A stretch of DNA of 64,000 bases, taken from NCBI GenBank assembly GCA_030446745.1, contig JAUJMS010000009.1:38429-102428 (forward strand), written 5' to 3'. This stretch comes from Egibacteraceae bacterium (GTDB lineage Bacteria > Actinomycetota > Nitriliruptoria > Euzebyales > Egibacteraceae). The position numbers and the translations under genes are program-made. The notes under the pieces were generated by a model, which saw nothing but the letters and a program-made list of their open reading frames with translations, did no database searches and was not told the origin of the DNA. Of the stretch, positions 9,293 through 22,147 are shown in pieces (position 1 is the stretch's first letter; every line of letters starts with the position of its first letter).

Positions 9293-10096
9293 ATGACCGC
9301 ACGTCTCGCTGCTGTCTGGAGCCGCCGAGAGATTCTGGGGCAGCTCGTCGGCCGGGACATCAGGGTCAAGTACAGCAGCTCCGTGCTCGGCTACTTGTGG
9401 TCCCTGCTCGAACCGCTGATGCTCACCGCGGTCTACTACCTGGTGTTCACGTTCTTGCTGTCGCGGGCACGGTTCGGCATCGAGGACTACGCGCTGTTTC
9501 TCATCCTGGGCGTGCTGCCGTGGCTGTGGGTGAGCTCCACGGTCGGTGCGTCGATGCGCGCGCTGAAGAACCAGGCACGGCTGATCAGCAAGGTGCGGAT
9601 CCCACGCGAGATCTTCCCGCTCGGCGTGGTCGGGGCGAAGACCTTCGATTTCATCATGAGCGCGCTGGTCATCGCGTTCGTCGCCGCCATCGCGCAGGCG
9701 CCACCGAACCCCAACCTGCTCTACGTCCCCGTGGCGTTCTTGCTCGAGATCATGCTGCTGACCGGTCTCGCGTTCTTCCTGTCCGCGGTCAACGTTCTGC
9801 TGCGCGACGTCGAGCGGCTGACGCGGATCATCCTGCGGGTCGGGTTCTACATGTCCGCCGTCGTCTTCCCGGTGTCGCGCATCACCCAGTCCGACCGGCT
9901 GCCGGAATGGGGCAAGCTGCTGTACCAGTCCAACCCGCTGATCGGGATTTTCTCGCTGTACCGCTCGGCGTTCTATCCCAGCGAGTTCCCGTCGACGACG
10001 GCACTGACGGCGTCGGTGGTGGGAGCGGTCGGCATGCTGATCATCGGATACTGGACGTTCATCAAGCTGGAACCGGCGGTGTTGAAGGAGCTATGA
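9293..10096 (+). CDS. ABC-2 type polysaccharide/teichoic-acid-like export permease
   Basis: MTARLAAVWSRREILGQLVGRDIRVKYSSSVLGYLWSLLEPLMLTAVYYLVFTFLLS, TagG/Wzm-like; followed by ATPase gene. Confidence 0.88.
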   Translation: MTARLAAVWSRREILGQLVGRDIRVKYSSSVLGYLWSLLEPLMLTAVYYLVFTFLLSRARFGIEDYALFLILGVLPWLWVSSTVGASMRALKNQARLISKVRIPREIFPLGVVGAKTFDFIMSALVIAFVAAIAQAPPNPNLLYVPVAFLLEIMLLTGLAFFLSAVNVLLRDVERLTRIILRVGFYMSAVVFPVSRITQSDRLPEWGKLLYQSNPLIGIFSLYRSAFYPSEFPSTTALTASVVGAVGMLIIGYWTFIKLEPAVLKEL

Positions 10097-10881
10097 GCGC
10101 GGGACAGGCGACAGCGGCAACCGCGGCAGTGGCGCACGCGCCGGCCGTGGAGGTCGACAACGTCGGCGTGCAGTTCCTGCGCAACCGAAAGCGCAAGGCG
10201 CGGATCCGCGACACCGTCATGCGCCGCCCCAAGCCCGAGCAGGACACGTTCTGGGCGGTGCGCCACGTCACCGCGTCGATCGCCCACGGCGAGACGGTCG
10301 GGCTGGTGGGAGAGAACGGCTCGGGCAAGTCCACGCTGCTCAAGCTCATCTCCGGGGTGCTCATCGCGGACGAGGGCTCGGTGACGGTCAACGGCGAGAT
10401 GGCGCCGCTGCTGGAGCTGGGTGCCGGGTTCTCGCCAGACCTGTCGGGGCGCGAGAACATCTGGCTGGCCGGCGCCATCCACGGCCTGACCCACGAGCAG
10501 ACCGCCGAGCGCTTCGACGCGATCGTGCGCTTCGCCGGCAAGGGGATCCGCAACTTCCTGGACACCCCCGTGCGGCACTACTCGTCGGGGATGAAGGTGC
10601 GGCTCGGGTTCGCCATCACCGCGCAGCTGGACCACCCGATCCTGCTCATCGACGAGGTCCTGGCAGTCGGCGACCGGCGGTTCAAGCGCAAGTGCTACCG
10701 CAAGATCGACCGCCTGCTCGAGGAGGGGCGCACGTTGATCATCGTGTCGCACAGCGAACGCGACGTGACGAGGTTCTGCCAGCGATCGCTGCTGATGCGC
10801 GATGGTGAGCTGGTGATGGACGGCCCCACCGAAGAGGTCTTCGCGGCCTACTACGACGACAGCGAGCTAGACGACGAATGA
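10093..10881 (+). CDS. ABC transporter ATP-binding protein (TagH/Wzt-like, polysaccharide export)
   Basis: GLVGENGSGKSTLLKLISG (Walker A), HYSSGMKVRLGFAI signature, ILLIDEVLAVGD (Walker B). Confidence 0.92.
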   Translation: MSAGQATAATAAVAHAPAVEVDNVGVQFLRNRKRKARIRDTVMRRPKPEQDTFWAVRHVTASIAHGETVGLVGENGSGKSTLLKLISGVLIADEGSVTVNGEMAPLLELGAGFSPDLSGRENIWLAGAIHGLTHEQTAERFDAIVRFAGKGIRNFLDTPVRHYSSGMKVRLGFAITAQLDHPILLIDEVLAVGDRRFKRKCYRKIDRLLEEGRTLIIVSHSERDVTRFCQRSLLMRDGELVMDGPTEEVFAAYYDDSELDDE

Positions 10882-11445: not shown

Positions 11446-14400
11446 TCACCCCTCGGACGGCGACGGCGACGGCGCCGGCGAGGACGGCGCCCCGCCGCCC
11501 TCGAGCAGCGCCTGGGCCTCGGCGAGCAACTGCTGGGCGCGGGCCGTCAGCTCCTGGTACCGGCCGAGGTCGCCGTCGCGCAGCGCCGTCTCCGCGTCGG
11601 CGAAGGCCTGGAGCGCGTCGGCGATGAGCGTCTCCACGCGCGGGTCGGCGCCGCCCGGGGACGGCGGCGGTGCGCCGTCGCCGTCCGACGGCGGCGCCTC
11701 GGTGGCGCCGTCGTCGTCGGGAGTGCCCACGCCGGCGGGCGCCACGCCGAACAGCGCCTCGAGTGCGTCGGCGAGCGTGTCGCGCATGACGACGCGGTCA
11801 CCGAACACCAACACGACCTTCGTCAGCTCCGGGATCTCGGACTGCTCGGCGCGCAGGAACAACCCCTGGCCGTACAGCAGCGCGCCGTCGATGGGGATCG
11901 TGAGCAGGTTGCCGTAGATCACCGCCGAGCCGCGCTGGTTCAACAGCGACAGCTCGCGGGAGATCTCGCCGTCCTGGTTGATCCGCGCCTGCACCTGCTC
12001 GGGCCCGAAGACCGTCTGGCCTGGCGGCATGAGCAGCGCCTGCAGCTGCCCGTACTGCTCGGGGTCGCTGCGCGCGACGAGGTAGGCGATGAGGTTGTCG
12101 CGGTCCTCCCCGCGCGGGGTGTACGGCTGCAGCAGGGCGAACTCGGGGTCGGTGTCGCCCGGTAGACGCAGCAGCTGGTACAGCGGCCGCAGGACACGGT
12201 TGCGCCGCTGCGCCGGCGGCACGGCGAGCTGGTTACTCGCGAAGGCCGGGTCGTTGGGGAGCTTCCACGCGTCCTCCTTGGTGTAGAACTCGGCCGGGTC
12301 CGGGATGTGGTACGTCCCGTAGACGGCCGCCTGGACGCGGAACATGTCCTCGGGGTAGCGGAAGTGGGCACGCAGCTCCGGGTCGATCTCGTCCGCGGAG
12401 CGGAACACCCCGGGGAACGCCGCGCGCCACGCGCGGATGACCGGGTCGCGCTCGTCGATGACGTACAACGTCACCGTTCCGTCGTAGGCGTCGACCACGG
12501 CCTTGACACTGTTGCGGATGTAGTTCGCGCGACCCTGGATGCCCGGCAGCTCGATGCTGCGCTCCTCGACGACCGGGACTCCGCCCGGTCCCGTCCGCGT
12601 GGACAGGCGGCGCTGCTCGGCCTGGGTCAGCGCGCCGAGCTCCACCCGTTCCGAGTAGGGCACCATGTCGGTCGTCGTGTAACCGTCGACGACCCATTGG
12701 ATGCGCCCGCCGGCGGCGACCGGGTAGGCGTCGTGGTCGAGTTTGAGGAACGGGGCGACCGCGGCCACGCGCTCGCGCACCTGACGGCGGAACAGCACCT
12801 CCGAGTCGGCGGTCAGCAGGTTGGACAGCACCATGTTCGGCTCGGCGAAGCGCAACGCAAACGCCAGACGCCGTCCGAAGGAACCGACGCCGACGCCGTC
12901 GCGGCCGTCGTAGCGGAACTCCTCGGGCGTCCCCTCGGCGCGCACGAAGTCCAACTCGTTCTGCCGCGTACCGACGACCGAGTAGTCCGCTGGGTTCTCG
13001 CCGTCCGGCCGGCTTTCGCCGAAGTACACGCGTGGATTCGCGACCTCCAGGGTCGGCACGCCCTCGGGCGGGATGTCGTCGAGCAGGAACTCCGGCTGAC
13101 CGTCTCGCGAGGCGGTGCTGACCGCCGACGCCACCATGCCGATGCCGTGGGTGAAGCGCAGGTGGCGGTTCTGCCAGGTGGCCGAGGGTAGGTCGCGCGG
13201 CGCGAGCTCGCGGGCGGCGACGAGCACCTGTTGCGGCGCGCCTTCGACGACGTAGCGGTCGGTGTCGACGTCGCGGAACTCGTAGTAGGGACGCAGCTCC
13301 TGCAGCTGCTCGTAGGCGGCCAGCGCCACGGTCGGCTCCCACAGCCGCAGCGACGTCAACGTCTCGGCGTTGTCCTGGACCGCGGCACGGGACAGCTCCG
13401 ACTCTGCGGGGAACTGCTCGACCGCGACCTCGTCGAGGCCGTACGCAAAGCGCGTGGCGGCGAGGTTGTCCGCGATGAACGGGCGCTCGCGTTCGAGCTC
13501 CTGCGGGTCCACACGCAGCCGCTGCACGACGGCGGGAAACACGCCCGCGAGCACGACGCTGGCGACGACGAGGATGCCGACCCCTGCCGTCGGCAGCAGC
13601 CAGCCGCGGAAGCGGATGTTGACCAGGAACAACGCCACGCAGACGACGGCGATGACGAGCAGCAGCCGGTAGGCCGGCAGCTGGGCGTTGACGTCGGTGT
13701 ACGACAGACCGGTGACCTGACCACGCTCCGAGTAGCTGAGCATGAACTGGTCGAGGCGGTAGCCCCAGGCGCGTACCGCGACCAGCGCGCCGAGCAGCAG
13801 GGACAGGTGGACGTTGGCGTGTGGGGTGATGCGCTGGCCCGGCGACTGGGGGCGGATCCCACCGAAGACGTAGTGAGCGGCGGCCGTCGCGACCAGCGTC
13901 ATCAGCAGCGCGGTGAACAGCCACGAGTTCACCAGCGCGTGGAACGGCAGGACGAACACGAAGAAGCCGACGTCGCGCCCAAAGACGGGGTCGACACGCC
14001 CGAACTCCTGCGCGTGACTCCACAGCAGGTAGACCGGCCAGCGCTTCACCATCGACAGGCCCGACAGGACGCCGAGGACGACGGCGACCGCGAGCAACAG
14101 TGACCGCGCGTGTGGCATGAGCGCCTCGCGGTACCGCTCGATCGCCTCCTCCTGCGGCGACGACACGCGCACGGTCGGCGCGAGGCGTCGCGCCAGTAGG
14201 AGGTTGCCGCCGAGGATCGCGGTGACGACGACGCCGGCAACGACGCCGAGGCCCGCCTTCGTCGCGAGCAGCGACCAGTACACGTCGCCGAAGCCGATGC
14301 TGCGGTACCACAGCACGTCGGTGTAGAAGGTCGCGATACGCGCCGCGAACAACACCGCGAGCAGGGCGGTGAGGCCCGCGACGAGCGGCCAACGTCGGCG

Positions 14401-14448
14401 CAGCTCGTCGCGCACCCTCGGGCGCGGACGCGCCCCCGGTGGGGTCAT
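11446..14448 (-). CDS. UPF0182 family large membrane protein
   Basis: ~1000 aa with N-terminal TM block (TFYTDVLWYRSIGFGDVYWSLL), large conserved extracytoplasmic region and acidic/proline-rich tail, COG1615-like. Confidence 0.9.
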   Translation of the reverse strand: MTPPGARPRPRVRDELRRRWPLVAGLTALLAVLFAARIATFYTDVLWYRSIGFGDVYWSLLATKAGLGVVAGVVVTAILGGNLLLARRLAPTVRVSSPQEEAIERYREALMPHARSLLLAVAVVLGVLSGLSMVKRWPVYLLWSHAQEFGRVDPVFGRDVGFFVFVLPFHALVNSWLFTALLMTLVATAAAHYVFGGIRPQSPGQRITPHANVHLSLLLGALVAVRAWGYRLDQFMLSYSERGQVTGLSYTDVNAQLPAYRLLLVIAVVCVALFLVNIRFRGWLLPTAGVGILVVASVVLAGVFPAVVQRLRVDPQELERERPFIADNLAATRFAYGLDEVAVEQFPAESELSRAAVQDNAETLTSLRLWEPTVALAAYEQLQELRPYYEFRDVDTDRYVVEGAPQQVLVAARELAPRDLPSATWQNRHLRFTHGIGMVASAVSTASRDGQPEFLLDDIPPEGVPTLEVANPRVYFGESRPDGENPADYSVVGTRQNELDFVRAEGTPEEFRYDGRDGVGVGSFGRRLAFALRFAEPNMVLSNLLTADSEVLFRRQVRERVAAVAPFLKLDHDAYPVAAGGRIQWVVDGYTTTDMVPYSERVELGALTQAEQRRLSTRTGPGGVPVVEERSIELPGIQGRANYIRNSVKAVVDAYDGTVTLYVIDERDPVIRAWRAAFPGVFRSADEIDPELRAHFRYPEDMFRVQAAVYGTYHIPDPAEFYTKEDAWKLPNDPAFASNQLAVPPAQRRNRVLRPLYQLLRLPGDTDPEFALLQPYTPRGEDRDNLIAYLVARSDPEQYGQLQALLMPPGQTVFGPEQVQARINQDGEISRELSLLNQRGSAVIYGNLLTIPIDGALLYGQGLFLRAEQSEIPELTKVVLVFGDRVVMRDTLADALEALFGVAPAGVGTPDDDGATEAPPSDGDGAPPPSPGGADPRVETLIADALQAFADAETALRDGDLGRYQELTARAQQLLAEAQALLEGGGAPSSPAPSPSPSEG

Positions 14449-16082
14449 TCCGAGGGCTCGGTCACGGGCACCGTCGTGCACGTGCAGCCGACGTGCACGG
14501 GAGGGACGTCGTGCCCGCTGGGGAACGGCTGGTCGAGGCCGAGCGCGCCGCTCTGGTCGTTGCTGCGACAGCGTGCTTCCGGGCAGCGCGGCTCGCGGCC
14601 GAGGACCCAGCGGCGTGCGGTCACGCCGCCCGCGCGCCAGGCGCGCAGCATGCCCAGCTCGTACGCGCGGATCAGGTGCGTCGCCGCCAGCTCCTCGGCC
14701 GAGGTGCCCTTGAGCTCCCCGAACACCGCGCCGATGCGGTCCGCCAGCGACGAGGCGTCCTCCGACGCCGACACGCCCATGCGCAGCGTCGCCGCGAGGC
14801 TGGCACGGACGCGTTCGGCGGCGTCGTCGGCGAACGTGCCAGCAAGGTCGGGCGTCGCCGCCGGCTCACCGAGGTCGCGCTCGGCGAGCGTCGCGGCCGC
14901 CGCACCGCCGGCGCGGTACGCCTGGTCCAGGTACTCCCCCGCTCCCGCGCCGAGGCGGGCCGCCTCGTCGGGCTGCGGCAGGAACGCGTCCGCGTCGCCT
15001 TTGCCCTTGGCGCGGCGCACCCGGTCCAACGCGATGTTCTGCATCTCCTGCAGCTCGCGTTTGACCTTGCGCACGAGCTTGGGATGCAGCGGCGACAACG
15101 CCGCCGCGCGCAGCCCCTGAGGCTCGCGCCGGGCGCCGTCGCGCCCTCCCGCCGGCGGGCTCAGCCGCGTCGCGGCCTGCGGCGCGGCTGGGCGTTCGCC
15201 GGGCGCCGTGGGGGTGGCGGCGGGGCTTTCGTCGGGCGCCGGCGCCCCGTCGGCGGCGGGCTCCGGCTCCGGTGCCGACGCGGCGGCACCAACCTCCACC
15301 GCCGGTGCGGCAGCGTTGGTCTCGGGCTCGGGCTCGTGCTCCGGCTGCGCCGCGTCGGTGGCGGGCTCGGGCCGGGGCGCTGGCTGGTCCTCGTTGCTCA
15401 CCAGCGCCGAATCGGACGCCGGTTGCACCTCGTCGGTCGCCACCGCCGGATCGGCTGCCGGTTGGACCTCGTCGGTCTCCAACGCCGGCTCGGGCGCCGG
15501 CGGCGCCGCGTCGATGGCGGGCTGCCGACCAGTCGTGGCGTCGCTCCGCACCTGCGCCGTGAGGGCGTCGCGCACGCTGGCCGCCGGCCGACCCGGCGCG
15601 AGGTCGCGCAACGTCTGTTCGAGGGTGCGTCCCACCGCACGCAGCTGCTCGGACAGCGCGTCACGGGCCTGTTCGAGCGCCTCGACGGTGCGCTCCATGC
15701 GCTCCCGCCGCCGCTCGCCCTCGGCGATCACCTTCGCGGCCTGCCCGCGCGCCGCCTGAAGCTCCCGGTCGGCCTCGTGGCGTGCTTTGCGCTGAATCTG
15801 CGCCCCGGCCTCCTGCGCCGCCTCGAGGATGCGCTGGGTCTCCTTGCCGATTTCGGCGAACATCGCGGCGGGCTGCGCCTCGGGCGTCACCGCCGGCGCG
15901 GCCGGTGCGGTGACCTGGTCGGCACGCAAGCGCTGGACCCGACGCTCGCCCTCGTCGGCACGGGCTTCGCTGGCGGCGACCTGCTCCGCAACCCTGGCGA
16001 GAAACGCGTGGACCTCGTCGCGGTCATAGCCCCGCACGGACACGAGGAACTCGCGCGCGGCAATCTCGTCGGGCGTGAGCAC
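14445..16082 (-). CDS. DivIVA-domain protein with phage minor-head (SPP1 gp7/Mu F)-like C-terminus
   Basis: N-terminus MLTPDEIAAREFLVSVRGYDRDEVHAFLARVAEQV is DivIVA-like; C-terminus ...RCPEARCRSNDQSGALGLDQPFPSGHDVPPVHVGCTCTTVPV resembles phage head morphogenesis C-termini. Confidence 0.7.
   Translation of the reverse strand: MLTPDEIAAREFLVSVRGYDRDEVHAFLARVAEQVAASEARADEGERRVQRLRADQVTAPAAPAVTPEAQPAAMFAEIGKETQRILEAAQEAGAQIQRKARHEADRELQAARGQAAKVIAEGERRRERMERTVEALEQARDALSEQLRAVGRTLEQTLRDLAPGRPAASVRDALTAQVRSDATTGRQPAIDAAPPAPEPALETDEVQPAADPAVATDEVQPASDSALVSNEDQPAPRPEPATDAAQPEHEPEPETNAAAPAVEVGAAASAPEPEPAADGAPAPDESPAATPTAPGERPAAPQAATRLSPPAGGRDGARREPQGLRAAALSPLHPKLVRKVKRELQEMQNIALDRVRRAKGKGDADAFLPQPDEAARLGAGAGEYLDQAYRAGGAAAATLAERDLGEPAATPDLAGTFADDAAERVRASLAATLRMGVSASEDASSLADRIGAVFGELKGTSAEELAATHLIRAYELGMLRAWRAGGVTARRWVLGREPRCPEARCRSNDQSGALGLDQPFPSGHDVPPVHVGCTCTTVPVTEPSE
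15340..15500 (-). repeat. Degenerate 39-bp (13-aa) tandem repeats inside the DivIVA-domain gene
   Basis: Encoded TDEVQPAADPAVA / TDEVQPASDSALV / SNEDQPAPRPEPA / TDAAQPEHEPEPE. Confidence 0.7.
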
Positions 16083-16160: not shown

Positions 16161-17729
<1,569 letters not shown>

Positions 17730-17740
17730 GACACTCCATG

Positions 17741-20485
17741 CTATGCACCCGCCCGCTGCTGGGGAAGCCTTTCGCGGACGAGCGAGCCGTTGCTCCTGAT
17801 GACTGTGTCGGCAACCGGCAGCAGCAAGTGAAACGTCGATCCGCGCCCCAGCCGCGACTCGACGGCGACGTCGCCCTCGAGCCCGTCGACGATACGGCGC
17901 ACCAACGCCAGCCCCAGGCCGAGGCCGCCGTACAACCGGGTTTCGCTGGCGTCGCCCTGGTAGAAGTCGCTGAAGACGCGCGCCGCCGTGGTTGGCTCGA
18001 TGCCGACGCCGCGGTCGCGCACCGACAGGCGGACCATCGGCTTGCCGTCGGCGTGCTCGAGCGTCGCGGCGACGCTGATCGGCTCACCGCCCGGCGAGAA
18101 CTTCACGGCGTTGTCGATGAGCTCGTCGAGGCAGCGTTGGAGCATCGCACGGTCCGCGAGCACCGCCGGCAGCGACTTCGCGACGCGCCGGCGGAAGTCT
18201 CGGTCCGGTATCCGCCGGCGCCACTGCGCGAGGACCTCCCCCACGACCGACGACAGGTCGACCGCCTCAAGGCGCGGCTGGACACGCCCGCTGTCGAGCG
18301 CCGCGAAGTCGACGATCATCCCGACGATGCGCTCCAGCCGACCGGTCGACGACAAAATCTGGCCCGCGAACTTGCGGGTCTCCTCGGGTCCGACGTCGCG
18401 CCGGGCGAGCACCTCGGCGTAGCCCTTGATCGGCGTCAGCGGCGTGCGCAGCTCGTGGCTGACGTTGGACAAGAACTCCGTCTTCATCCGTTCGATCTCG
18501 GTCTCGCGGGTGACGTCGCGCAGGACGAGCACGCGGCCGAGGAACTGCCCGTCGGTGGTGTCGTGCACCGGCGCGGCACTCGCCGCCGTCGGCACGCGAC
18601 GGCCGTCGCTGCGTTCGAGCAGCAGCTGCACGGCGGTGACCTGCTCGCTGTCGGACGCGCCGAGGGCGGCGGCGGCGGGCACACCGCCCGGCCCCCGACC
18701 GACGAGCACCTGCTCGAGCGGCAGACCGACCACCTCGGGGACCGCACGCCCGACGAGCCGCTCGGCGGCCGGGTTGAAGGTCGCCACCTTTCCGTCGGGG
18801 TCGACCGCAACGAGCGCGTCACTCATGGACGTCGTGAGCGCCTCCAGCCGCGCACGCAGCCGCGACTGCACCGTGGCGGCGTCGCGCAGCTGCGCCGACT
18901 GCGCGGCCAGCGACGTCGTCATCTCGTCGAACGTGCGACCCAGGACCCCGACCTCATCCCGGCTCGCGACGTCGGCGTTGACGTCGAGGTCGCCCTCCCT
19001 GACCGCGGCGGCAGCCGTGGTCAGCCGCCGGATCGGGGCGACGAGCCGGCGGGTGACCAGGGCCGCGACCGCCCCGGCGAGCAGCGCGCCGACGAGGGCG
19101 AGCAGGAACAGCCGGCGCGCCTGATCCTGTTCGAGGTCGGCCAGCGTCGCCGCCTCGCTGACCGCGACGACGCGCCCCACGACCGTGCCGGTGCCGGGGT
19201 CCTCGATCGGCGCGGCCGCCGCGTACAGCGGGCGCCCGGGGATCGGCACGGCGTCGCGGCCGTCGTCGCGCACCGCCGCGACGACGTCGGTGGCGATGTC
19301 GCGTACCCCAGGAGAGGCAACCGTCGACGCGTTGCCGGTCGCGAGGATGACGTTGCTGGCGACGTCGTCGCCGGTCGCCGCGACCCGCGTCGCGTCGGCG
19401 ATCCGCCCGGTCAGCACGACGCCGAGCGGCGGCGTCTCGGCGCGTGCGCCGGGGGCGTCGAGCGCCACCGCGCCGACGCCGACGAACTGCCCGCCGATCG
19501 TCAGCAACTCGCCGGCGTCGTTGGCCTCGCTCGACAGCAGCCGGTCCACCAGCGTCGTGCCGCTGAGCTGCAGCAGGAAGCTGTCGTCGAGCGGCCCGGT
19601 CGGGGCGTAGGACCCGGCGACCATCCCGTCCTCGTCCAGCACGACGAGGAAGTCTTGGTCCTGCCCGCGGAAGAACGCCTCGTACACCGGCTCGAGCGAC
19701 TCGTTCCCGCGGTCGGCGAGGTTGCGCAGCAGCGACGAACCCTGTCCGCGCAGGATCGCCGCGGCGTTGATCGCGTCGACGAGCCAGTCACTCTCGATCT
19801 GCGTCGCGATGCCGGCGCTGAGGCCGTCGAGGCGGTCGAGCTCGTCGTCGACGAGGTCGCGCGACCCTTGGTCGCTCAGGGCGCCCGCGATGAGCACCAC
19901 GACGGCGAGCAGGATCGCCACCGACGCGGTGACGAACTTGGCGAGCAGCGCCCGTGCGCTCGCCTGCCACAGCCACCACCCGATCGCGGCGGCGCCGGCC
20001 ACGGTCAGCGCCGCACCGGCGGTCAGCGACAGGCGCTCGACCGGCTCCGCCGCGCCCCACGCGAGCAGGCCGACGCCGACGAGGATCGTGCGGCGGCCGC
20101 CGACGAGGCCGCGCACACCGCCCAACAGGCCCGCCGCCGCCGCGACCGCCGCGGCAACGGGAACGGCGGGCACCGGCAGCAGCACCGCCGGCCCGGCGAG
20201 GCGACGCAGCCCACGCGGGGACAGGCCGACCGCGACGAGTGCGAGCCCGCCGGCGTGCAGCCACGCCACCGCGACGACGCTGCCGGAAACCAGCGCCCCC
20301 GACAGCCCGTGGCCGACGGCGATCGCCATGGCCCCCGTGGCGAGCAGCAGGTCCAGAGCGCCGCGGCGGGCGGCGCCTGCGGCGCCGGGGCGCGTCACGA
20401 CGACGATGGCCAGGCCGACCGCGGCGAACAGGGCAAGCAGGCTCGCGGCCAGATGCAGCGGCGTCGACAAGCCGGCTTCGGCCAT
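17741..20485 (-). CDS. Membrane sensor histidine kinase (HAMP, PAS, HisKA, HATPase)
   Basis: FLSNVSHELRTPLTPIKGYAEVL (H box), DRGVGIEPTTAARVFSDFYQGDASETRLYGGLGLGLALVRRIV (N/G boxes). Confidence 0.93.
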   Translation of the reverse strand: MAEAGLSTPLHLAASLLALFAAVGLAIVVVTRPGAAGAARRGALDLLLATGAMAIAVGHGLSGALVSGSVVAVAWLHAGGLALVAVGLSPRGLRRLAGPAVLLPVPAVPVAAAVAAAAGLLGGVRGLVGGRRTILVGVGLLAWGAAEPVERLSLTAGAALTVAGAAAIGWWLWQASARALLAKFVTASVAILLAVVVLIAGALSDQGSRDLVDDELDRLDGLSAGIATQIESDWLVDAINAAAILRGQGSSLLRNLADRGNESLEPVYEAFFRGQDQDFLVVLDEDGMVAGSYAPTGPLDDSFLLQLSGTTLVDRLLSSEANDAGELLTIGGQFVGVGAVALDAPGARAETPPLGVVLTGRIADATRVAATGDDVASNVILATGNASTVASPGVRDIATDVVAAVRDDGRDAVPIPGRPLYAAAAPIEDPGTGTVVGRVVAVSEAATLADLEQDQARRLFLLALVGALLAGAVAALVTRRLVAPIRRLTTAAAAVREGDLDVNADVASRDEVGVLGRTFDEMTTSLAAQSAQLRDAATVQSRLRARLEALTTSMSDALVAVDPDGKVATFNPAAERLVGRAVPEVVGLPLEQVLVGRGPGGVPAAAALGASDSEQVTAVQLLLERSDGRRVPTAASAAPVHDTTDGQFLGRVLVLRDVTRETEIERMKTEFLSNVSHELRTPLTPIKGYAEVLARRDVGPEETRKFAGQILSSTGRLERIVGMIVDFAALDSGRVQPRLEAVDLSSVVGEVLAQWRRRIPDRDFRRRVAKSLPAVLADRAMLQRCLDELIDNAVKFSPGGEPISVAATLEHADGKPMVRLSVRDRGVGIEPTTAARVFSDFYQGDASETRLYGGLGLGLALVRRIVDGLEGDVAVESRLGRGSTFHLLLPVADTVIRSNGSLVRERLPQQRAGA

Positions 20486-20597: not shown

Positions 20598-21065
20598 TCA
20601 GCTGCGCGAGAACAGGCGACGCCCCGCCTGCTCGGACGGCTCGTGGTCCAGCGCTGACACCGTCGCGACCAGCGGCGGGCGGGGCGCCTCGGGCTCGGAG
20701 GCGCTGACGGCCGGCGCCTCGGCGGGCGCGTCGCCGGGCGCTCCCGCGGCGGGGCGCAGCTCGACGCGGTAGTAGGTCTTGAACTCGATGGGGATCTCCT
20801 GCATGCGGTACACCCGCACCTCGGAGGCCTCCTCGTTGTTGCGCAGGCGCTCGACGAAGCGCAACGCGTCGTCGAGCGCGCCGGCGACGTGCTGGGCCTC
20901 ACGGCCCTCCGGGGTGAGAAACCGCACGAGGTGCTCCACGTTGCGCCTGCCTTCCAGCTTCGGCGTCGCCTCTTCCGGCGCCGCTCCATGCTGCGAGAAA
21001 TCGGCGCGCGCGGCGCCAACCTTTACCGGCGGCCGCGCAGTTCCGACGCCGCCGTGCCGGGTCAT
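20598..21065 (-). CDS. Hypothetical protein following mreB
   Basis: MTRHGGVGTARPPVK...RNVEHLVRFLTPEGREAQHVAGALDDALRFVERLRNNEEASEVRVYRMQEIPIEFKTYYRVEL; start overlaps mreB stop. Confidence 0.65.
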   Translation of the reverse strand: MTRHGGVGTARPPVKVGAARADFSQHGAAPEEATPKLEGRRNVEHLVRFLTPEGREAQHVAGALDDALRFVERLRNNEEASEVRVYRMQEIPIEFKTYYRVELRPAAGAPGDAPAEAPAVSASEPEAPRPPLVATVSALDHEPSEQAGRRLFSRS

Positions 21066-22060
21066 GTCCCCGCGAAGAGGTGGCGCAGGTCGTCGAAGGC
21101 CTCGATCGTCGTGCCGGCGCCGGTGACGACCGACGCCAACGGCTGGTCGACGACGTTGACCTTGATCTGCGTCTCCTGCGCGATGCGCGCGTCGAGTCCG
21201 CGCAACAGCGCCCCGCCGCCCACCAGCCACATCCCCTGCTCGAGGACGTCCTGCGTCAGCTCCGGCGGGCAGTTCGCGAGCGCGTCCGTAGCGGCGGACA
21301 CGATTGCGCTGACGCAGTCGTCGATCGCGGTGCGGACCTCCTCCGCGCCGACGAGCACGACCTTCGGCAGGCCGGTGGCCAGTTCGCGACCGCGGATCTC
21401 CGCCTTCGGTTCGTGTGCCTGGGGGTAGGCGGACCCGATCGCGAGCTTGAGCTCCTCCGCGGTCCGCTCGCCGATCGCGACCGCGTACTCGCGGCGGATG
21501 TAGGACTGGATCGACGCGTCGATGTCGAACCCGCCGGTGCGCACCGCCTTGCACGACACGATCCCGCCGAGGCTGATCACCGCGACCTCGGAGGTGCCGC
21601 CGCCGACGTCGACGACCATGTTGCCCAGCGGCTCCTGCACGGGCAGGCCGGCGCCGATCGCGGCCGCCATCGGCTCCTCCATGAGGAAGGCGTGGGCCGC
21701 GCCGGCCTGCTCCGCCGCCTCGACGACCGCGCGGCGTTCCACTGCGGTGATGGCGCTCGGAACACAGATCAGCACGCGCGGGCGCGACAGGCGCCCGACA
21801 CCGACGCGCTGGAGCACCAGCTTGAGCAGCCGAGCCGTCGTCTCGAAATCGGTGATCGCACCGCCGCGCAGGGGCCGCTCCGCGACGATGTGGCCGGGCG
21901 TGCGCCCGATCATCGAGTAGGCCTGCGTGCCCATCGCGAGGATGTCGCCGTTGCGCTGGTTCAGCGCGATGACCGTCGGCTCGTTGAGCACGATGCCGCG
22001 GCGCTTGCTCCACACCAGCGTGTTCGCCGTCCCCAGGTCGATGGCGAGGTCACGCGGCAC
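21062..22060 (-). CDS. mreB: Rod shape-determining protein MreB family
   Basis: MPRDLAIDLGTANTLVWSKRRGIVLNEPTVIAL; VVDVGGGTSEVAVISLGGIV; LVGGGALLRGLD. Confidence 0.92.
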   Translation of the reverse strand: MPRDLAIDLGTANTLVWSKRRGIVLNEPTVIALNQRNGDILAMGTQAYSMIGRTPGHIVAERPLRGGAITDFETTARLLKLVLQRVGVGRLSRPRVLICVPSAITAVERRAVVEAAEQAGAAHAFLMEEPMAAAIGAGLPVQEPLGNMVVDVGGGTSEVAVISLGGIVSCKAVRTGGFDIDASIQSYIRREYAVAIGERTAEELKLAIGSAYPQAHEPKAEIRGRELATGLPKVVLVGAEEVRTAIDDCVSAIVSAATDALANCPPELTQDVLEQGMWLVGGGALLRGLDARIAQETQIKVNVVDQPLASVVTGAGTTIEAFDDLRHLFAGT

Positions 22061-22147
22061 GCGCGGCTCCTTGCCTCGCGCCGACGGGGCGGCACGGCGG
22101 TCGCAGGCGCCCGGCGCCGTGGCGTCCGCCGGACTGCTGGCGCGCGG

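Follow-up and report, generated by a model that had tools for sequence, protein, structure and literature searches.

A Conserved Actinobacterial Protein Joining DivIVA to a Predicted Phage MuF Domain, Encoded Next to UPF0182

The DivIVA-MuF Gene and Its Locus

The window analysed here, a stretch of 64,000 nucleotides from the genome of an Egibacteraceae bacterium (contig JAUJMS010000009.1), encodes a protein of 545 amino acids with a GTG start codon (positions 14445..16082), for which orthologues were found; this and all the window features given below with coordinates lie on the (-) strand. An initial annotation, made from the sequence itself, had divided this reading frame into a DivIVA-like N-terminus, a coiled coil, a long Pro/Glu linker and a helical C-terminal region, all of which are present as described. 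The DivIVA domain occupies residues 1-56 (15915..16082), inside the first 60 residues where it had been placed, and is recognised by PF05103 of Pfam (E = 2.7e-13, 50.4 bits against a cut-off of 28) and by TIGR03544 (3.9e-9, above its cut-off). When the N-terminal profile of the family was compared with crystal structures, it matched DivIVA of Bacillus subtilis (2wuj, 6e-9) and also GpsB. As in other members of the DivIVA family, a coiled coil follows at residues 73-165 (15588..15866), which is conserved (54% mean identity) and forms a single long helix, from about residue 70 to 160, in the AlphaFold2 model. The low-complexity linker of residues 166-322 (15117..15587; Ala 26%, Pro 19%, Glu 10%) is poorly conserved, with a mean identity of 23% among relatives, and it leads to a helical bundle ending in a Cys/His motif (residues 324-545, 14448..15113), the predicted MuF domain. 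No transmembrane stretch was found in the protein. The N-terminal domain and the coiled coil are thus like those of DivIVA, Wag31 and GpsB (PF05103), whereas the long linker and the C-terminal MuF domain set DivIVA-MuF apart from them. The same genome carries a second, canonical DivIVA, so DivIVA-MuF can be regarded as a specialised paralogue that exists beside it.

The stop codon of the gene overlaps, as ATGA, the start codon of the next one (11446..14448), which encodes a 7-TM membrane protein of the UPF0182 family (PF03699, 3.2e-269) that has hydrophobic segments among its first 311 residues. On the upstream side there are a gene without a Pfam match that looks FecR-like by eye and is conserved in 11 loci (16161..17729), a sensor histidine kinase with HAMP and PAS domains identified by domain search (17741..20485), and a gene for an MreB-like cell-shape protein (21065..22147; PF06723, 1.5e-127). 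Positions 20598-21230, which separate the histidine kinase gene from MreB, hold a small gene that Pfam does not recognise, and a similar sequence (EHLV-F--EGRE) also occurs near MreB in another locus (L239).

This arrangement recurs in the 56 loci for which flanking sequence was compared. UPF0182 is the next gene on the same strand in 55 of them, and in the 56th the contig ends at the DivIVA-MuF gene; outside the window, the nearest UPF0182 start codon usually lies within about 100 nt of DivIVA-MuF. A gene for a PDZ-Lon protease is found upstream in 42 of the 56 loci, and an MreB-like gene lies nearby in 32. Other actinobacteria have a comparable UPF0182 (PF03699) locus, such as that of Rv3193c of Mycobacterium tuberculosis, which we take to be a member of the family. 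A PDZ-Lon or MreB gene is near UPF0182 in both cases, and the difference lies in the DivIVA-MuF gene directly before UPF0182. Among 25 examined genomes without a MuF match, UPF0182 is retained in 23, indicating that it does not need the MuF protein; in the MuF-less genomes that we read, it is preceded by various genes, a PDZ-Lon-like gene or MreB among them, or, in one family (f3), by a gene for DivIVA and a coiled coil. Two genomes that are 96% and 95% complete (G141 and G157) have neither the MuF gene nor UPF0182, and a joint loss of both is possible.

A Predicted MuF Domain at the C-Terminus

Residues 324-545 are conserved among relatives and their end reads WVLGREPRCPEARCRSND...FPSGHDVPPVHVGCTC, within a family motif of the form W...CPxxxC..N..G...FPSG..VPPxHxGCxC. 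The MuF profile of Pfam, PF04233, scored 14.6 bits on the window protein (E = 0.055), below its curated cut-off of 29.6 bits, so routine annotation would miss the domain; relatives came closer and still remained under the cut-off (best scores of 24.2 and 28.4 bits, with E = 5.9e-5 among them). Among profiles built from phage proteins, the window protein matched PHROG 2662 (portal, 1e-15) and PHROG 2468 (head morphogenesis, 2e-5), and the match to the C-terminal 200 positions of the portal protein of PHROG 2662 was obtained with all 14 family members tested (best 9e-16). Moreover, tblastn with DivIVA-MuF reached genes annotated as phage portal, MuF-like and capsid genes (best 5e-5), and relatives are encoded on 99 viral contigs, with 79 viral ORFs matching the family HMM. 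With hhalign against the single Mu gpF sequence, only the PPxxxxCxC end was aligned.

Structure provided an independent test: an AlphaFold2 model of the domain, based on an alignment of six cellular sequences only, reached a pLDDT of 87.3 and a pTM of 0.86. A Foldseek comparison with viral proteins, in which the structures on both sides are predictions, gave 55 matches at E<=1e-3 with a query TM of up to 0.78, the top ones being portal proteins of phages and gene transfer agents (GTA), minor capsid proteins and head-morphogenesis proteins. Solved structures searched by sequence and by fold yielded no MuF relative, and the fold match rests therefore on predicted viral structures. The initial annotation had considered the C-terminal pattern typical of SPP1 gp7 and Mu gpF and had proposed structure prediction as a check on the gp7/MuF fold; the PHROG 2662, tblastn and structural matches to viral MuF proteins all agree with that reading, and we regard the C-terminus as a MuF domain as judged from profiles and models. 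A chance motif is ruled out by the PHROG profile and Foldseek matches, together with the recurrence of the whole arrangement in hundreds of genomes.

In its predicted fold and in the motif C..C..N..G..PPxHxxCxC, the domain is the same as that of phage MuF proteins (Mu gpF, SPP1 gp7 and portal-MuF fusions; PF04233, PHROG 2662), but DivIVA-MuF is chromosomal, fused to DivIVA and set in a fixed cellular context, with neither portal, terminase or capsid neighbours nor a toxin domain. MuF polymorphic toxins (Jamet et al. 2017, PMC5576092) likewise hold MuF in a multidomain protein of a bacterial genome; they are prophage-borne and have MuF at the N-terminus followed by the toxin, whereas in DivIVA-MuF it is C-terminal and neither toxin nor prophage accompanies it. 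A function as a MuF toxin was rejected, as no toxin domain is present and the protein terminates immediately behind its MuF motif.

Distribution and Evolutionary Origin

Genes with this MuF domain occur in 205 of 296 genomes (165 of the 210 good ones), nearly always as a single copy, of the class to which genome G094 belongs, which we take to be Acidimicrobiia, with Acidimicrobium ferrooxidans DSM 10331 and Ilumatobacter coccineus as presumed members. They are also present in 58 of 397 genomes sampled evenly across the phylum and in 18 of 101 relatives, with many Nitriliruptoria among the carriers. Among the listed genomes that gave no MuF match, many are of about 1 Mb and belong to one family (f31). 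The initial annotation, which knew one locus, had suggested a domesticated phage module with no other phage genes nearby and had pointed to phylogenetic distribution as a test. The gene recurs across two classes and hundreds of genomes in a fixed cellular neighbourhood, which supports the suggestion.

The neighbours tested in the window (ABC transporter, UPF0182, histidine kinase, MreB, MoaE and epimerase genes) are all cellular, no phage genes, portal or terminase included, were found among the conserved neighbours of the 56 loci, and the terminase profile PF03354 had no match in the window's genome, which is 85% complete. A prophage remnant is ruled out by the shared cellular context of the 56 loci and by the failure to find a terminase in that 85% complete genome.

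In a tree of about 140 columns, a single branch (SH-aLRT 98) separates the MuF cores of 48 cellular proteins from those of 61 viral ones, the viral sample having been picked by sequence pattern and covering part of MuF diversity. The cellular group stays together when seven further phage references are added (94/86), and the tree is consistent with a single origin of the cellular MuF domains. Rooting with Mu gpF and the MuF proteins of Salgado, HJTV-4 and prophages leaves the direction of transfer undecided. This blindness of the tree, with the two sets flanking a single branch, gives room to the reverse history, where MuF would be anciently cellular, phages would have taken it from cells and nothing would have been domesticated. 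However, MuF is common across the tailed phages, while its bacterial copies are almost all in prophages (PMC5576092), which makes transfer from phage to cell the simpler interpretation; moreover, in the genomes searched, the cellular set does not extend beyond parts of a single phylum. We consider a cellular origin quite improbable, and passage from phage to cell the more parsimonious hypothesis, although one that the tree itself does not prove.

A Possible Envelope or Division Scaffold

We propose, with a probability of about 0.6, that a phage MuF domain was domesticated and now forms the interaction head of a scaffold, anchored through DivIVA, that would work with UPF0182 in the envelope or in division. 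An early actinobacterium would have acquired a MuF domain, in phages a minor capsid and portal-binding module, on a single occasion and joined it to a DivIVA paralogue. The DivIVA domain, from which anchoring at the membrane or the division site can be read, would hold the protein on curved membrane at the poles or septa; the coiled coil would oligomerise it, and the long, flexible linker would allow the MuF domain to extend outward. The MuF head could then dock UPF0182, its most likely partner, in the way that gp7 of phage SPP1 binds the portal protein gp6 (PMC6316719), and UPF0182, perhaps also with the linked PDZ-Lon protease and MreB, would be positioned for envelope growth or division. 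Of this model, the fusion of the two domains, its conservation as a single-copy gene and its linkage to the neighbouring genes are observed, and the membrane site, the docking by MuF, the partnership with UPF0182 and the direction of transfer are inferred from them. Observations in mycobacteria lend the idea outside support: the 7-TM protein Rv3193c was a TnSeq interaction hit, being more needed without the division protein Rv0954 (PMC8093794), and a ClpC1 interactome list includes a UPF0182 protein and Wag31 (PMC10433963). Counting against the scaffold are the aforementioned persistence of UPF0182 in most of the MuF-less genomes and the variant forms, described below, in which MuF, DivIVA or the Cys/His motif is missing.

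Other functions can be conceived for the same architecture. DivIVA is a partner in the anchoring of chromosomes at the cell pole, and the fusion could accordingly be a chromosome tether, in which DivIVA holds the pole and MuF binds DNA, as a one-protein counterpart of the RacA-DivIVA pair. The title of a reference listed in PMC6316719 does in fact describe SPP1 gp7 as a protein that binds DNA and is targeted to the portal. However, the acidic character of the MuF domain in the cellular proteins (median net charge -8, pI 5.25) makes DNA binding less likely, and the neighbouring gene codes for a membrane protein and not for one of chromosome segregation, so we hold a tether to be unlikely. The portal binding of gp7, together with the existence of defences that block assembly (PMC10884400), would also suit an anti-phage decoy, where MuF held at the membrane traps the portal rings of incoming phages and prevents virion assembly. 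Defence genes tend to be mobile and patchily distributed, whereas this gene is single-copy, present in most genomes of the class and fixed beside UPF0182, which makes the decoy very unlikely.

Both domains were already known, and what seems new is that they are combined in a conserved host gene next to UPF0182: our literature search for a DivIVA-MuF fusion found no published description, and nothing relevant came up for DivIVA in connection with Acidimicrobiia or head morphogenesis. We lean slightly towards regarding this phage portal-binding domain as an ancient and near-universal part of the envelope or division apparatus of Acidimicrobiia and of many Nitriliruptoria, anchored through DivIVA and associated with UPF0182. 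If so, it would be, to our knowledge, the first MuF domain with a job in the host cell. It would be a clear example of how a structural domain of the virion can become part of the core machinery of the cell, here in actinobacterial classes whose division and growth have been little studied. It would also offer a functional lead for UPF0182, a large family of membrane proteins that mycobacteria and corynebacteria possess as well, and the binding partners of the MuF fold, still a question in phages, could then be sought in a cellular setting.

Variant Forms of the Locus

A DivIVA match in the same frame as MuF was obtained for 47 family ORFs (56 loci with flanks), and several of the ORFs lacking it correspond to contig ends or split frames. 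Of the 56 members, 52 retain the Cys/His motif and four lack it; L181, L182, L185 and L205 keep the helical part of MuF with a Cys/His end that is lost or altered. Two members of another family (L206 and L207, f90) keep the coiled coil, the linker and MuF, with no detectable DivIVA N-terminus. In the Euzebya-like family f3 (L243, L248 and L249), a short DivIVA-coiled-coil gene without MuF, a frame of 229 amino acids in two of the three, lies directly upstream of UPF0182, which indicates that the DivIVA-coiled-coil gene belongs to the locus and that MuF is an optional module of it. Taken with the two DivIVA-less members and the four without the Cys/His motif, this version implies that neither end of the protein is indispensable everywhere.

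Two MuF matches each were reported for some genomes of family f37 (G112, G291 and G300). Finally, positions 9771-10277 of locus L029 hold an open frame of 169 amino acids where DivIVA is fused straight to the end of MuF, without coiled coil or linker, for which deletion, decay or misassembly are candidate readings.
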